A stretch of DNA of 64,000 nucleotides from Acidimicrobiia bacterium. Its GTDB lineage: Bacteria > Actinomycetota > Acidimicrobiia > IMCC26256 > PALSA-555. The notes below the pieces were generated by a model that was not told the DNA's origin, did not search any database, and saw nothing but the letters and a program-made list of their open reading frames with translations. The position numbers and the translations under genes were made by a program. The stretch is taken from positions 23,472-87,471 of the forward strand of contig JBBECS010000003.1 in NCBI GenBank assembly GCA_040881685.1, written 5' to 3'. Positions 50,764-58,332 of the stretch are shown in pieces; positions within the stretch are counted from its first letter, which is position 1; every line of letters starts with the position of its first letter.

Positions 50764-51951
50764 CTAGTTGAACCGGTTCGCGTAGACGTTCTGTACGAGG
50801 GCCATGCAGGCGCAGCACGTGAGCATGGCCGAGCCGCCGTAGCTCATGAACGGGAGTGGGATGCCAGCGACCGGCATCATGTTGAGCGTCATGCCGATGT
50901 TCTCGAAGATCATGAACGTGAACATCGCCAGCACACCCGCGCACACGAGGGTTCCGTAGAAGTCGCGTGCGAGCTGGGCTATTCGCCAGGTCCGCCACAG
51001 CACGATGCAAAAGAGGAGGATCAGGGTCCCGGCGCCGAGGAACCCGAACTCTTCTCCCACGGCCGTGAAGATGAAGTCGGTGTGCTGCTCGGGCACGAAG
51101 CCGAGGCGGGTCTGCGATCCGTTGAGGTACCCCTGCCCGTCCAGGCCGCCGGCTCCCAGCGCCGCGGTGGCTTGCTTCACGTTGTACGCAGAGCCCTGGG
51201 TCGCGTTCTGGGTGTCTTGGAACACGGCGAGTCGGTCGAGCTGATACTCCTGGAGGACGCCCACCTCGATCACCGCATAGATGGAGGTGATCGACAGCAG
51301 CCCGAGGATCAAGAGGTACCGACCCCGGACACCCGCGACCGCGAGCAGGCCGATGACGATCGCCATCAGGACCATGTTCGTCCCGAGGTCAGGCTGGAGC
51401 TGCACGAGCCCGAGCGGTACCAGCGCCAGCGTGATGATGACGGTCAACCGCCAGGGATCGATGTCACCGCGGTGCTCGTTCACGTAGCCGGCCAGCGCGA
51501 CGATGAGCCCGAACTTGGCGAACTCCGCAGGCTGCAGCTGGAAGTTGAACGGGAGCTCGTACCACGACGTCGCACCACCCGCCGCCGATCCGATCGGCGT
51601 GAGCACGAAGAAGAGTGCCGCGACCGTCAGCACGTACGCGAGCATCGAGAAGTCGCGGAACTTCCGGTAGTCGATGCGCAGCAGCCACACGAACACGCCG
51701 ATGCCGAGCATCAGCGCCACGGCCTGGCGGGTCACGAAGTAGTACTGGTCGTCGACCCGGTTGCGGCTCGCCGAGTACACCATGAGCAGCCCGAAGATCG
51801 CGATCAGCGCGCACGCGACGAGCAGGATCCAGTCGAGACGCCCGGCCAGCTCGGAGTCGGCGAGTGCGCGCCCGGAGCGGTCGGTACCTAGGCCGGCGGC
51901 ACGCATCGTGCGCCGGTGGTGCCGCTGACGCTCGAGGTGGACGTGCGCCAT
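50764..51951 (-). CDS. rodA: SEDS glycosyltransferase RodA
   Basis: Peptidoglycan polymerase of the elongasome, working with PBP2. 395 residues with about ten membrane helices; the SEDS patterns include LPFNFQLQPAEFAKFGLIV, QPDLGTNMVL, a TDFIFTAVGEEFGFLG block and the C-terminal MPVAGIPLPFMSYGGSAML. It begins directly after the mrdA stop (no gap), the canonical mrdA-rodA pair. Confidence 0.96.
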   Translation of the reverse strand: MAHVHLERQRHHRRTMRAAGLGTDRSGRALADSELAGRLDWILLVACALIAIFGLLMVYSASRNRVDDQYYFVTRQAVALMLGIGVFVWLLRIDYRKFRDFSMLAYVLTVAALFFVLTPIGSAAGGATSWYELPFNFQLQPAEFAKFGLIVALAGYVNEHRGDIDPWRLTVIITLALVPLGLVQLQPDLGTNMVLMAIVIGLLAVAGVRGRYLLILGLLSITSIYAVIEVGVLQEYQLDRLAVFQDTQNATQGSAYNVKQATAALGAGGLDGQGYLNGSQTRLGFVPEQHTDFIFTAVGEEFGFLGAGTLILLFCIVLWRTWRIAQLARDFYGTLVCAGVLAMFTFMIFENIGMTLNMMPVAGIPLPFMSYGGSAMLTCCACMALVQNVYANRFN

Positions 51952-53973
51952 CTAGCGGTCGCCTCCCGGGTTCTTCGGCGGGATGAGTCGGACCTCGGGT
52001 GGATCCTTCTCGCCGGCCAGCGCCTGGATGATTCGCTTGGTGATCGGCGCGGCCACCGAGCCGCCGTTGCCACCCTCCTCGACGAACACGACCACGACGT
52101 ATTGCGGGAAGTCGGCGGGGTCCGCCCCCTCCGGCGGGTCGGGGTTGACGATGCCGACGAACACCGAGGTGTCCTGCCTGCCGAACACCTCGGCGGTGCC
52201 GGTCTTGCCGGCCGCCTGCCACCCCGCGGGCAACGAGATCCCCGAGAAGGCTGGCGCCGCCGTTCCGATGCCGATGACCGCGTTCTTCAGCCCGTTCATG
52301 ACCAGCTGGCGGACCTCGGGATCGAGGTTGATGTCGCCGAGCTCTTGCGGGGGCAGCTCGCGCAGGATCGACGCCCGGCCCGGAGTGAGGATGCTCTGCG
52401 CGAGCCGCGGTTGATAGAGCTTGCCGCCGTTCACGAAGGCCGCATACCCCGCGGCGAGCTGGAGCGGCGTCACGAGCAAGTCGCCCTGGCCGACCGCCAG
52501 CGCCGCGCTGTCACCCGGCAGCCACACCCTCGTCGACCCGTCGGAGTTGTTCTTGTTGATGCGGGCCTTGTACCTCTGGTTCGGGATGCGGCCGACGTGT
52601 TCGTCGGGGAGACCGATGCCGGTCTTGGTGCCGAAGCCGAAGCGCCGCGCGAGGCGCTGGACCGAATACCCCGTGGCACGATTGCCCTTCTCGAACGCGC
52701 GGAAGAAGCGGAAACCCATCGTGTAGAAGTAGACGTCGCTCGAGATCTGGATTGCCGACTCGAGCTTCACGGCGCCGTGGCGCTCTTTGCCCGCGTTCTT
52801 GAAAATCTGCTCGTTCGGCGGAACGCCGAACTTGATCTCGCCCTTGTCTTGGATGACTTCCTCGGGATCGATCACACCGGTCTCGAGCCCGGCGAGCGCG
52901 GTGAAGAGCTTCCACGTGGATCCAGGTGCGTACTGACCCTGGATGGCCCGGTTGAGCAGCGGGTAGTTGCTCTTCGGATCGTTCAGTGCTTGGTACTTCT
53001 CGATGGGGATGCCGTCGGTGAACTCCTGCACGTCGAACGTGGGTGCGGACGCGAGCGCGATGACCGAACCGTCGCTCGCATCCAGCACGACCGCGGCGCC
53101 ACCCTTCGCGCTGTACGTCTTGAATCGGTCCTTGATCGTCGGGTCGCGAAGACCACTGGCCTTGCGCATTCCTTGCGCGAGTGATTCTTCGGCGACGCGC
53201 TGTACGTCGATGTCGAGCGTGAGTTGCACGTCATTGCCGGCATCGGCGGCGTCGTCGCGCAGAACCTGAACGAGGCGACCGCGGCTGTCGACCTCGAGCT
53301 TGCGCGCCCGGGGTTTTCCGCGGAGCTCGGTCTCGAAGACTTGCTCGACACCCACCTTCCCGATCACGTCGTCGGGCCCGTATCCCTCTCCTTCGTGCAG
53401 CTTCTGCTCGTCCTTGTTCACGGCCCCCACGTAGCCGAGAAGGTGCGAAGCCGGCGACGTGTCCTTGAACACCGAGGGATAGATGAGAGCGATCTCCTTG
53501 AAGAGCGGGTACTCGCGGACGCTGCGGCGGACCGCGTCCACCTTCGGGAACATCTCGGGGCGTTCCTTGATGTAGACGAGCGTCTTGTACGCCACGTCGT
53601 TCTGGATCGGGACCGGCTGGTACGGCGAGTATCGGACACTGTCGAGGCGCTTGTTGATGTACTTCTTGGTGACCCCGAGCGCCTTGGCCAGGTTCGGCAC
53701 CATGCGCTTGCGCTCTGCGTCGGTGATCCCGCGCCGTACCTGGATCGTGTTCACGAGGCTGCTCACGACGAGGACCCGGCCGTTGCGGTCGAGGATGCTC
53801 CCCCGGACGGCCGTCTCGTGGATGATGCGCACCCGGTTCGCCTCGGTCTGCGCGGCATAGCTCGTGGACGATGCGACCTGGAGGAACCACAGGCGCGCGA
53901 AGAGCCCAGCGAACAAGGCCATGACGATGATGCCGATGATGCCGAGGCGGACTCGGCTCTTGGCTTCTGTCAC
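51952..53973 (-). CDS. mrdA: penicillin-binding protein 2, elongasome transpeptidase
   Basis: Class B PBP that cross-links peptidoglycan for rod growth. 673 residues: short cytosolic tail, one membrane helix (about 9-31), N-terminal dimerisation domain, then the transpeptidase with the nucleophile in GSTWKLFTALAG, an SSD version of the SxN motif in IQISSDVYFYTMGF, and GKTGTAEV. GTG 53973 is chosen because it lies just after the repeat's GGGGATGAG box and immediately before the membrane anchor; an upstream in-frame start would be inside the repeat. Confidence 0.95.
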   Translation of the reverse strand: MTEAKSRVRLGIIGIIVMALFAGLFARLWFLQVASSTSYAAQTEANRVRIIHETAVRGSILDRNGRVLVVSSLVNTIQVRRGITDAERKRMVPNLAKALGVTKKYINKRLDSVRYSPYQPVPIQNDVAYKTLVYIKERPEMFPKVDAVRRSVREYPLFKEIALIYPSVFKDTSPASHLLGYVGAVNKDEQKLHEGEGYGPDDVIGKVGVEQVFETELRGKPRARKLEVDSRGRLVQVLRDDAADAGNDVQLTLDIDVQRVAEESLAQGMRKASGLRDPTIKDRFKTYSAKGGAAVVLDASDGSVIALASAPTFDVQEFTDGIPIEKYQALNDPKSNYPLLNRAIQGQYAPGSTWKLFTALAGLETGVIDPEEVIQDKGEIKFGVPPNEQIFKNAGKERHGAVKLESAIQISSDVYFYTMGFRFFRAFEKGNRATGYSVQRLARRFGFGTKTGIGLPDEHVGRIPNQRYKARINKNNSDGSTRVWLPGDSAALAVGQGDLLVTPLQLAAGYAAFVNGGKLYQPRLAQSILTPGRASILRELPPQELGDINLDPEVRQLVMNGLKNAVIGIGTAAPAFSGISLPAGWQAAGKTGTAEVFGRQDTSVFVGIVNPDPPEGADPADFPQYVVVVFVEEGGNGGSVAAPITKRIIQALAGEKDPPEVRLIPPKNPGGDR

Positions 53974-53978
53974 CTCAT

Positions 53979-54060
53979 CCCCGCTCTCGGTGCTGTGCAC
54001 CAGGCCGCTCGGGCCCCGGCTCCCTGCGGGCCGGCTTACCCGGCCCGCAGCCGGTCGCCT
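53979..54060 (-). repeat. intercistronic structured repeat, copy 6 (amidohydrolase to mrdA)
   Basis: Carries the longest hairpin of the family (54024-54034 with 54040-54050, CTGCGGGCCGG/CCGGCCCGCAG, 11 bp, 5-nt loop), the GC-rich middle GGGGCCCGAGCGGCC, a triloop hairpin with changed pairs (53989-53993 with 53997-54001, GGTGC/GCACC) and the GAGAGCGGGGA box. The changes keep pairing relative to copies 1 and 7. Confidence 0.75.
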
Positions 54061-54093
54061 TCGGCGCACGTGAGGTCATGGGACGCGACGAGG

Positions 54094-55737
54094 CTACCCC
54101 TTGAGGATCGGCACGCCCGGGCGGACTTCCTGGTGATTTCCTGTGAGATCACGCACCACCTGCCCCGCTACCAACACGTACCGCACGCCTTCCGATTCGA
54201 CGCCGGGATTCTCGACGGTCGAACGATCGGCCAGCGTGGCCGGATCGAAGATCGTGAGGTCGGCGTCGGCGCCGATCTGGAGTCGCCCCTTCTTGCGCAT
54301 CGCCGGAGCACCTGCCTCGGTGAGGCGCGCCGGGAGGATCGTGGCCTTCGCGAGCGCGGACTTCAGGTCGATCACCTCGAGCTCGCGCGTGTACCGGCCG
54401 ATCGCGCGCGCGAAGCACCCCGTCGATCGCGGGTGGTTACGGTCGCCTGGCTCGAGGATGGAGTCACTCCCGAGCATCACGAAGTCGCTTTGGAGCGCGA
54501 GGCGCACATCGGACTCGGGGATCGCGTACGCGGCCGTGAGCTCGTTCTCGCGCTGGTGACTCGCGAAGGTCGACGCCGTGAGCCGCTCGCCGGTGCCGAC
54601 GATCACGAGATCCTCGTACGAGATGTGGAAGCGCTCTTGCCAACCGTCGTTGAACCGGGCCGAAGCCAGGTAGGTGGCCCAGAAGTCATACGGGTACGTG
54701 CACGCGGTGACCTCGATGCCCGCGGCGCGGGCCTCTTCGAGCGTCGCGAGTGATTGCTCCATCGTGTAGGTGCCGCCGGTGCTGATGATGTGCTCGACGT
54801 GCACGCGGGCACCGGTCTCGGTCGCGACGCGCAGGATTTCGGCGAGGGTCTCTGCGTTCGTCCCGGGTGAAACGTCGTCCGAATAGCGCCCGTGAAACGT
54901 GCACGGCACGTCGTGCTGCTTGGCGACTTCGGCGAGCGCCTTGATCTCGTCGAACGCGACACCGGGCGAGTACTCGGGCTCGAAGTCGACCGCGATGTAG
55001 CCGTTGTTCAGGTCCTCGTCGCACATCGCGACGAGCTGATCGATCTGGGTCGACGTCGCCGCATCGTCGATGCTCATGCCCAACGCGACGCTGCGCGTCC
55101 AATAGTTGCTGAACGCTCCGCCGTAGTTCGTCGGAGGTCGATCCGCTTCGGAGCCCCACCTCGCGAAGAAGTCCGCCGCGCGCGCCTGGAGGCCATGGAG
55201 ACCGAGGTTGGTCGTGACGCCGTCGGCGATCTTGTACCAGATGCCATACGAGTTGGGCTCGTAGCTGAGGATGTCGATCCAGCCCGGCGACACGACGAGT
55301 CCCGCTGCGTCGATCGTCGCCACACCGGTAAGGCTCGACTCCGAGATCGCCAGCACGGTGCCGTCGTCGATACCGACGTCGGCCACGTAGTCGTAACCAG
55401 ACTCCGGGTCAATGACCCGCCCGCCACGAACCACGAGCTCGAACGTGTGGCTGGCCTCGGTCGGTATCCTCGTCACACCCGGTATCGACCGAACCCCGCG
55501 ACGGTTCTTTCCTCCACCGCCGCCGAACGCGCCGACCGCGGCCGCCAGCCCACCGACGACGGTCACCGCTCCTCCTGCCACGAAGGCGCGACGCGTCATG
55601 TACGTACGGTGCATTCGCCGGCGCGCCTCGTCGCGCGCTCGACGAGTCGTCGCGTCCGGCACCGGCCGGCGCGGATGCCTGCCCGCGCTCTGCGGACCCT
55701 GTCCCGGCGGGACTCCGCCCGGCGGTGGGCCGGTCAT
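54094..55737 (-). CDS. Tat-exported amidohydrolase of the D-aminoacylase family
   Basis: 547 residues. A twin-arginine signal (MTRRAFVAGG at 47-56 plus hydrophobic core) predicts export. The amidohydrolase barrel resembles N-acyl-D-amino-acid deacylases: FEPEYSPGVAFDEIKALAEVA, His282 in FHGRYSD, His316 in VHVEHI, MLGSDS and NHPRSTGCFARAIGRYTRE. The usual metal-binding HxH after strand 1 is lost (IDILSYEP, Leu157 and Tyr159), and the usual bridging Cys position appears as His181. Its place inside mreBCD-mrdA-rodA suggests a role in cell-wall D-amino-acid or peptide turnover; this is inference. ATG 55737 has GAGG upstream. Confidence 0.82.
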   Translation of the reverse strand: MTGPPPGGVPPGQGPQSAGRHPRRPVPDATTRRARDEARRRMHRTYMTRRAFVAGGAVTVVGGLAAAVGAFGGGGGKNRRGVRSIPGVTRIPTEASHTFELVVRGGRVIDPESGYDYVADVGIDDGTVLAISESSLTGVATIDAAGLVVSPGWIDILSYEPNSYGIWYKIADGVTTNLGLHGLQARAADFFARWGSEADRPPTNYGGAFSNYWTRSVALGMSIDDAATSTQIDQLVAMCDEDLNNGYIAVDFEPEYSPGVAFDEIKALAEVAKQHDVPCTFHGRYSDDVSPGTNAETLAEILRVATETGARVHVEHIISTGGTYTMEQSLATLEEARAAGIEVTACTYPYDFWATYLASARFNDGWQERFHISYEDLVIVGTGERLTASTFASHQRENELTAAYAIPESDVRLALQSDFVMLGSDSILEPGDRNHPRSTGCFARAIGRYTRELEVIDLKSALAKATILPARLTEAGAPAMRKKGRLQIGADADLTIFDPATLADRSTVENPGVESEGVRYVLVAGQVVRDLTGNHQEVRPGVPILKG

Positions 55738-55741
55738 GTCC

Positions 55742-56251
55742 TCATCGCCAGCCCCTGGCGCGGTCGGGATCGTGGTTCGCCCAACGCGCGAAGACAAACA
55801 CGAGTGGCGCCACGAGGCCGTCGTAGAGCGCGGCGACGATCACGATGCGCACCTGTGTCAGGGTGAAGAAGTCGTCAGAGCCCGCGATCCCTCCAACCAC
55901 GAGAAAGATCGTCCCACCCACGAGGCCGCCCGCGATCGCGAGCAGCGGGGAGATGCCGCGCACTTCCCGCACGAGACCACCCTGGAACACTCCGAAGAGG
56001 TAGCCCGTCAACGCGAAGGAGAGCGCGGAGAGGCCGACCGGTGTGCCCGACAAGAGCATGTCGATGGCCAGACCGCTCGTGAATCCGAAAATCGCGCCGG
56101 TCTGCGGTCCCTCCTCATACGCGACCGCCACCGTCGCGATGAGGCAGAGGCTGGGGATCGCGTCGAAGATCCGCATGTGCCTGAACACGGTGTTCTCGAG
56201 CACCACGAGTGTGATGACGAGCAGGACCAGTCGAACTCGGCGTAGAACCAC
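55742..56251 (-). CDS. mreD: rod shape-determining protein MreD
   Basis: 169-residue membrane protein with about five helices, linking MreC to the elongasome. The order mreB-mreC-mreD and a hydrophobic pattern with ENTVFRHMRIFDAIP and AIFGFTSGLAIDMLLSGTPVG support the call; sequence in this family is poorly conserved. GTG start at 56251, 6 nt after the mreC stop. Confidence 0.88.
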   Translation of the reverse strand: MVLRRVRLVLLVITLVVLENTVFRHMRIFDAIPSLCLIATVAVAYEEGPQTGAIFGFTSGLAIDMLLSGTPVGLSALSFALTGYLFGVFQGGLVREVRGISPLLAIAGGLVGGTIFLVVGGIAGSDDFFTLTQVRIVIVAALYDGLVAPLVFVFARWANHDPDRARGWR

Positions 56252-56257
56252 GCGTGC

Positions 56258-57151
56258 TCAGCTGGTCTTGGTCTTGGGTTCGGGCCAGCGCAGCACCTTG
56301 ACGTAGGTGAGGTCGTCGAGGTCGACGACCGGTCGGATCTTGATCGTCGCCTCGAGGTCCGTCGTCGCCCTGGTGTAGGACTCGATGATGCCGACGGCGA
56401 TGTCGGGCGGGAAGGCGGCATCGTCGGTGGATGCAGTGAAGACGAACTCGCCCTCGGCGATGCACGTGTCTGGCGAAGAGCTCTCGGTGCACTTCGGCAA
56501 CGGTGCACCCGTGGGCTCGAAGATCTCGAGGAACTTGAGCAAGACCTCGCGCTCCCCGGTATGGGCCTCGGTGAGGCCGCGCACGTCAGTGTTCTCGAGC
56601 CGCACGCCAACACCGATCTCGGGCGAGTCGACGAGCGTGACCGTGGCCAAAGTGCGTGACACCCTGGTGACGCGGCCGACGAGTCCGTTTCCCGCCACCA
56701 CCGGTTGCCCGACGAACACGCCCGAGCTCGTGCCTTTGTTGATCTCGACCGTGCGCTCGAAGTTGCCGGCCGCTGAACCCACCACACGAGCAGCAATGCC
56801 GGTCGCGTCCTCAGCGGTCGGGAGGTCGAGAAGCCGCTCGAGCTCGCCGACCTTCCCGCCCACCGCCCGATCTCGCGAGATCTGCCCTTCGAGCTTGGTA
56901 ACTCGTCGTCTCAGCTCGGCGTTCTCGTCGCGGAGGCTGCCGTAGTCGGTCAGGCCACCAGCCAGGTCACGCACGGGCGAGAACACGTCCTCGACCACGC
57001 TGCGCACTGGAGCGCTCGCGTCACGCACGCCGGTGCGGACCGAGTCGATGACCCCGTTGCCTCGCGAGTCGAGGGTGACGAGCAACAACGAGCTGATGAC
57101 GATCGCGAGCAGGACCGAGCGATGACGACCCTCTCGCCGATAGACGACCAT
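56258..57151 (-). CDS. mreC: rod shape-determining protein MreC
   Basis: 297 residues: cytosolic N-terminus, one membrane helix (about 13-29), a coiled coil (about 70-105, ENAELRRRVTKLEGQIS), and the periplasmic beta domain with GIAARVVGSAAGNFERTVEI and GVFVGQPVVAGNGLVGRV. It positions PBP2 and RodA outside MreB. The end of a degenerate repeat copy supplies GGGAAGGG upstream of the ATG. Confidence 0.94.
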   Translation of the reverse strand: MVVYRREGRHRSVLLAIVISSLLLVTLDSRGNGVIDSVRTGVRDASAPVRSVVEDVFSPVRDLAGGLTDYGSLRDENAELRRRVTKLEGQISRDRAVGGKVGELERLLDLPTAEDATGIAARVVGSAAGNFERTVEINKGTSSGVFVGQPVVAGNGLVGRVTRVSRTLATVTLVDSPEIGVGVRLENTDVRGLTEAHTGEREVLLKFLEIFEPTGAPLPKCTESSSPDTCIAEGEFVFTASTDDAAFPPDIAVGIIESYTRATTDLEATIKIRPVVDLDDLTYVKVLRWPEPKTKTS

Positions 57152-57191: not shown

Positions 57192-58232
57192 TCAGTCGTC
57201 GGGTCCGCTGATCAGCACCTGCCGGAGCACATCGAACTGCTCGAGACACTGGCCCGAGCCGAGCACGACGGTGTAGAGAGGATTCTTCGCCCGTCGGCAC
57301 GGCATGCCCGTCTCCGCCTCGATCGCGGTCTCCAGGCCGAGCAAGAGGGACCCACCACCCGCGAGCATGATGCCGCGCTCCATCACGTCGGCCGCGAGCT
57401 CCGGCGGCGTCTTGTCGAGCGTGACCTTGATGGCGTCGATGACCGCCGCCACCGGCTCCTCGATGGCTTCACGGATCTCTTGCGTCGTGACGGTGACGGT
57501 CCGCGGGAGTCCGGTGACGAGGTCGCGTCCGCGGACCTCGGCGTAGAACTCCTCCTCGAGTGGATATGCGCTTGCGATCTTGAGCTTGACCTCTTCTGCG
57601 GTGCGCTCGCCGAGGGAGAGCGAGTACTCACGCTTCATGAACGACATGATCGCTTCGTCGAACTCGTCGCCACCGACACGGCTCGACTCGGCCGACACGA
57701 TGCCGCCCATCGAGATCACAGCGACCTCGGTCGTCCCTCCACCGATGTCCACGATCATGTTGCCTGCCGGCTCGTGGATGGGGAGCCCCGCACCGATCGC
57801 CGCCGCCATCGGCTCTTCGATCACCATCACGGGCTTGCGGGCGCCGGCGTACTCGGCTGCCTCCTGCACCGCGCGTCGCTCGACACCCGTGATCCCCGAC
57901 GGGATGCAGATGACCATTCGGGGCTTGGCCCACCGGTTGCGCTGATGCACCCGCTGGATGAAGTAGCGGAGCATCTTCTCGCAGATGTCGAAGTCGGCGA
58001 TGACGCCGTCCTTCAACGGGCGGATCGACTGGATGTGGCTCGGGGTCCGACCCAGCATCCGCTTCGCCTCGGAACCCACGGCGAGGATGTCGCCCGTGCG
58101 GCTGTTGATCGTGACGATCGACGGCTCGTTGAGCACGACGCCCTGGCCGCGGACGTAGACCACCGTGTTGGCGGTGCCCAGGTCGACGGCCATGTCGCGG
58201 CCGATGACATTGGAGTACCAGGACGCGCTCAT
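57192..58232 (-). CDS. mreB: rod shape-determining protein MreB
   Basis: Actin-like filament protein that organises elongasome movement. 346 residues: phosphate-1 [50 protein letters not shown], phosphate-2 [16 protein letters not shown], and adenosine loop [15 protein letters not shown] 58232 matches the usual start (short leader before [15 protein letters not shown]). No Shine-Dalgarno sequence is evident; GATACT and TAGCCT upstream are possible -10 elements. Confidence 0.97.
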
Positions 58233-58300
58233 AGAGGGAGAAGCCGGCTGACGGTGACCACGGGACCGTAAGGCTATGTCCTCAGGAGAGGAGTATCCAG

Positions 58301-58332
58301 CCGACTCTCGGGGCTGTGCGGGCGGCGCCACC
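58301..58332 (-). repeat. possible degenerate intercistronic repeat (ndk to mreB)
   Basis: GCACAGCCCCGAGAGTCGG on the minus strand closely resembles the GCACAGCACCGAGAGCGGGG end of copy 6, but the box has one inserted T and the partner stem is degraded. It lies about 70 bp before mreB. Confidence 0.35.

Follow-up and report, generated by a model that had tools for sequence, protein, structure and literature searches.

The amidohydrolase gene and its operon

The window, i.e. the whole stretch of 64,000 nucleotides analysed here, carries an operon in which all genes lie on the minus strand in the order mreB-mreC-mreD-AH-mrdA-rodA-radical SAM, where AH denotes the amidohydrolase gene under study and the last member, beyond rodA, is a large ORF resembling a radical SAM protein. 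The identities of MreB (57192..58331, PF06723), MreC (56258..57151, PF04085), PBP2, the product of mrdA (51952..53973, TIGR03423), and RodA (50764..51951, TIGR02210) were confirmed with Pfam and NCBIfam profiles; MreD (55742..56251, GTG start) is identified by NCBIfam TIGR03426, above the cut-off, and lies under the Pfam cut-off. The coordinates of mreB are those of its longest ORF, and the real start is probably more internal.

AH occupies 54094..55737 of the minus strand and encodes 547 amino acids, from an ATG at 55737 to a TAG stop. The ORF, the coordinates and the neighbour profiles all agree with the position between mreD and mrdA given in the preliminary description. Only 4 nt separate the mreD stop from the AH start, and the G+C content and GC3 of the gene are in line with those of the neighbouring genes. 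On the other side, mrdA probably starts at the GTG at 53973, which is preceded by a GGATGAG-like ribosome site, rather than at the mechanical ORF start at 54069. The resulting gap of 120 nt holds a perfect, G+C-rich inverted repeat of 11 bp, which encloses a loop of 5 nt and lacks a T-run (54024..54050, minus strand). No conservation of this hairpin was found in relatives, and a terminator and promoter scan across the mre operon gave no signal above chance.

The taxonomic family to which the genome belongs was represented by 12 genomes of 5 genera. Three of the genera, with six genomes, carry AH throughout, whereas the six genomes of the other two genera all lack it; wherever it is present it occupies the mreD-mrdA slot, in one case overlapping mrdA by 4 bp. 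As five other genomes have the same gene in the same place, its presence at the mre locus is not due to chance. This survey, proposed beforehand as a check, also bears out the suggestion that the slot is normally without such a gene: in 44 other relatives, namely those in which a single contig holds both mreB and mrdA, the spacing between the two matches (tabulated by hand) is about 1.3-1.8 kb, which leaves room for mreC and mreD only, except for one relative with partial matches where it is 2.3 kb; in the gene-bearing genomes it is 2.9-3.2 kb. The public records matching the gene-bearing genomes are Acidimicrobiia or Actinomycetota MAGs, several of them from lakes.

The six orthologues share 66-80% protein identity, and L157, S158, Y159, H181, H282, H313, H316, D425 and the HPR block are invariant among them. 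Their dN values (0.14-0.28) are comparable to or lower than those of mrdA and rodA, and dN/dS ratios are rough because dS is about 0.8-1.0 (0.77-1.04) where estimable. Judged by these substitution rates, the mre-operon copy is under purifying selection. In the tree of AH homologues the mre branch is one clade (SH-aLRT 100), according to which the mre location is a single, lineage-specific relocation in one Acidimicrobiia family. A broader mre trait was ruled out, as no mre operon beyond this family has AH among the genomes examined. MreB-like or RodA/PBP2 matches near two other homologues (loci L123 and L067) were dismissed as coincidence, because they are either weak or in convergent orientation at a distance of 2.7 kb.

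The LSY clade and its altered active site

The AH protein matches the Pfam families Amidohydro_3/1 and scores 341.5 bits against NF006560 (curated cut-off 340), or 342.5 bits in the genome search that included its neighbours. PRK09061/NF006560 is annotated as 'amidohydrolase family protein', and went by the name D-glutamate deacylase in older annotation. The AlphaFold2 model has pLDDT values mostly above 90 in the catalytic domain (residues ~98-530), and the first ~80 residues, which include the Tat signal, are of low confidence or disordered. Foldseek places the model with the subtype V D-aminoacylase fold, a TIM barrel with a beta domain (E 1e-35 to 1e-33, TMt ~0.8). The best PDB match is the N-acyl-D-Glu deacylase 3gip (E 1.4e-35), followed by PpOngB and D-aminoacylases, and the same structures are the nearest solved ones by sequence and by profile.

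As the preliminary description had noted, the HxH motif of D-aminoacylases is absent, and its position is taken by Leu157-Ser158-Tyr159 (55261..55269). His181 (55195..55197) stands where subtype V enzymes have the metal-bridging Cys and classic PRK09061 proteins a Glu; the placement is exact by phmmer and one column off by hhalign. Both His and Glu are able to bind metal at this position. The other residues named earlier are kept, i.e. the putative beta-site ligands His282 (54892..54894) and His316 (54790..54792) and the block His435-Pro436-Arg437 (54427..54435), and so is Asp425 (54463..54465), the predicted catalytic general base. Arg437 corresponds to the alpha-carboxylate-binding Arg379 of PpOngB; in the Lys/Tyr/Arg clamp of which this residue is part, Tyr348 is also kept and the Lys position (318) is Ile. 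A further candidate, Arg361 as the counterpart of the gamma-carboxylate-binding Arg295 of 3gip, was suggested by phmmer and dropped when hhalign disagreed. No peptidoglycan-binding domain was found in AH.

These features are not confined to the copy in the mre operon of the six genomes. When species genomes were scanned with these orthologues as queries, 80 relatives were obtained; the scan used the patterns GFIDILSY/YGIWYK, so that the LSY motif is partly selected in its matches. In motif-independent searches, HxH is absent in 6 of the 9 NF006560 matches, phylum-wide, and among the 23 matches of a class-wide profile search the two weakest have the classic HSH and Glu, while every other match with the motif read is LSY-type (three full-length and one partial match were left unread at this motif). 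The LSY proteins stand apart from the classic members with an SH-aLRT of 95; the deep order of the tree is not firm because it comes from a quick search and has some long branches. By sequence, AH thus belongs to a distinct and uncharacterised clade of the PRK09061/NF006560 branch, here called the LSY clade, with members, by record titles, in Actinomycetota, Bacillota, Bacteroidota, Gemmatimonadota, Armatimonadota, Ignavibacteriota and Myxococcota. Two of the public MAG records (L050 and L072) are titled Bifidobacterium breve and contain Acidimicrobiia-like DNA, probably a case of mislabelling.

In an alignment of 92 proteins, outgroups included, H282, R284, H316, D425, HPR, Y256 and Y348 are present in every row. 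Position 181 is His in 85 rows and Glu in 4; the remaining three are all outgroup rows, in which the alignment of this loop is out of register.

The N-terminus of AH is Tat-like, as proposed earlier: in the signal region (residues 47-72, 55522..55599, minus strand, MTRRAFVAGGAVTVVGGLAAAVGAFG) a twin-arginine motif (TRRAFVAGG...) is followed by a hydrophobic stretch, and the RR pair and Phe52 are invariant in the six orthologues. A rough scan found RR ahead of a hydrophobic segment in 73 of the 92 aligned proteins, and several of the remaining rows have Sec-like or transmembrane N-termini. By signal motif, the LSY clade is predicted to be nearly always exported, and the altered site is, as far as alignments tell, the signature of this whole subfamily across about seven phyla. 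The altered ligands described earlier are real in AH, and the notion that they are peculiar to the mre gene did not hold, since the motif-independent searches found HxH loss clade-wide. This weakens the step from active-site change to elongasome role, because most carriers of the site are far from mre genes.

Gene neighbourhoods and possible function

Outside the mre operon the commonest partner of LSY genes encodes a PGA_cap protein (PF09587, CapA-like), which lies immediately downstream and co-directional in 45 of 79 testable loci, often with a 4-bp overlap. One clade of the AH tree has 48 rows, of which 45 carry the PGA_cap gene, and most sampled Acidimicrobiia relatives have this pair; the 45 loci are not independent events as they come from related MAGs. 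Examples are L090:7370-8593 and L101:7344-8624, besides 43 other loci, many from Acidimicrobiia. The pair is apparently an envelope module without earlier description: literature searches for a PGA_cap-amidohydrolase pair and for D-glutamate deacylase together with peptidoglycan gave nothing relevant, and the papers searched contain no report of an amidohydrolase together with mreD and mrdA. Within the PGA_cap clade, a gene in divergent orientation lies upstream of the amidohydrolase at L084:4484-5542 (minus strand) and at 11 other loci; its product has a hydrophobic segment at the N-terminus and matches no Pfam family. Small 'AH-like' ORFs upstream of AH at L096, L110, L111 and L119 were rejected, as they look like antisense shadow ORFs.

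Other members have other neighbours. In the cultured Paenibacillus cellulosilyticus KACC 14175 (locus L163, NZ_CP054613.1 2284878-2300197) the LSY gene adjoins a full Opp-type peptide transporter; its product is membrane-anchored with a C-terminal extension, in a public record that is nearly unannotated. Single LSY genes are found with TAXI-TRAP uptake genes (L100, 4-bp overlap), a Tat-exported M24 peptidase (L117) and an amidase (L072).

The reading that we favour, and to which we give about an even chance, is that AH is a Tat-exported, single-metal hydrolase of N-acyl- or N-peptidyl-D-amino acids, a member of the LSY clade that one family has taken into its rod operon. It would be an envelope enzyme of the D-aminoacylase fold, with the signal anchor probably keeping it at the membrane. 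One Zn-like ion may be bound at the beta site by His181, His282 and His316; Asp425 would activate the water, Tyr256 would polarise the amide, and Tyr348 and Arg437 would hold the alpha-carboxylate of the substrate. The loss of HxH would leave the protein without the second (alpha) metal site, like the Q-x-N of E. coli NagA. The substrate is likely an extracellular N-acyl- or N-peptidyl-D-amino acid, and a free alpha-carboxylate on the D-residue can be inferred as one of its features. D-amino-acid or peptidoglycan substrates, as first proposed, are plausible candidates. The L-Ala-D-Glu bond of the wall peptide amounts to that of an N-acyl-D-glutamate, and this amide is the candidate that would best fit fold and context together; gamma-D-Glu polymers and free N-acyl-D-amino acids would presumably suit the enzyme equally.

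The gene would have moved once into the mre-mrdA-rodA operon and then been kept, and is therefore probably expressed with the elongation machinery. It is only the position that suggests a connection with wall growth for this family, and by itself it does not give the substrate, because relatives with the same residues are found far from mre genes. On a bolder proposal, which seems to us improbable, the LSY proteins would form a new class of exported amidohydrolases that hold a single metal by three His and act on peptidoglycan peptides, for example at the L-Ala-D-Glu bond, and in this family the protein would be a dedicated rod-elongation enzyme.

The strongest competitor, which we consider possible but clearly less likely than the favoured reading, is that AH is exported and hydrolyses N-acyl-amino acids for scavenging or detoxification, a nutritional role, and is placed in the mre operon for the steady expression of an envelope gene and without a function in the wall. 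That most relatives lie outside mre operons, that single members adjoin transporter (Opp-type or TAXI-TRAP), amidase or peptidase genes and that only one relocation into mre took place all speak for it. However, the exact mreD-mrdA slot has been kept across three genera, with the overlap into mrdA in one genome, and the commonest partner of the relatives is a protein of envelope-polymer type and not a transporter.

It was also suggested earlier that AH might be a non-catalytic elongasome partner. On this reading it would be a pseudoenzyme that lost catalysis along with HxH. In PpOngB, Ala at either His of HxH abolishes activity, so that the motif is essential even though it is no metal ligand (PMC12017989), and with both residues replaced in AH the loss could kill catalysis unless the site has been rewired. 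Nevertheless, the beta-site His pair, Asp425, Arg437, Tyr256 and Tyr348 are invariant, residue 181 is His or Glu in all rows in register, and the same pattern recurs in several phyla and in relatives without an elongasome link, which argues for a catalytic one-metal enzyme over a dead one. NagA also shows that activity is compatible with HxH loss. We regard a purely structural role as quite unlikely. Least probable of all is a partnership with a PGA_cap-type system on a poly-gamma-glutamyl or capsule-like polymer, later recruited to wall growth: the co-directional pairs and the N-acyl-D-glutamate deacylase as nearest solved homologue would fit, but the window genome and its family have no close PGA_cap orthologue (the best match, elsewhere in the genome, has ~29% identity) and many clade members have no PGA_cap gene.

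If the LSY clade is active, a His/His/His one-metal site would be added to D-aminoacylase-type chemistry, and a route to function would open for an exported family found in about seven phyla. If the substrate is the wall peptide, peptidoglycan turnover would involve a class of enzymes that had not been suspected, and one lineage would have tied it to its elongation operon. The member in cultured P. cellulosilyticus makes the clade testable.

Comparison with known enzymes

It is instructive to compare AH with its characterised and annotated relatives. The classic PRK09061 proteins (L039, L040, L161 and L162) are the closest, as the profile matches AH over its full length and two His, the Asp and HPR are shared. 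They differ in that they have HSH with Glu181 instead of LSY with His181, and those members that were read showed no export signal, while the AH clade carries one.

The nearest folds, the N-acyl-D-glutamate deacylase of Bordetella bronchiseptica (3gip) and the D-aminoacylase 1m7j (TM ~0.8 by target length), are subtype V enzymes which have two His, the Asp, the Tyr and the Arg in common with AH. In contrast, AH is without the bridging Cys, the HxH and the alpha-carboxylate Lys, and its insertion region aligns poorly with theirs.

PpOngB, a GlcNAc1A deacetylase, needs one Zn, bound at the beta site by Cys/His/His; its Asp368 is the base, Tyr194 contacts the amide oxygen, and Lys254, Tyr285 and Arg379 grip the alpha-carboxylate (PMC12017989). 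Asp368, Tyr194, Tyr285 and Arg379 match D425, Y256, Y348 and R437 of AH, and Lys254 is without a counterpart. The two proteins differ in the Cys ligand, the essential HxH and the substrate, and share ~20% identity in the fold match. If AH is active, its proton handling must therefore differ from that of PpOngB. A precedent is E. coli NagA, in which QxN replaces HxH and the enzyme is mononuclear and active (PMC6016474). NagA resembles AH in the loss of HxH and keeps one metal, although its ligands are Glu/His/His and it belongs to another family with another substrate.
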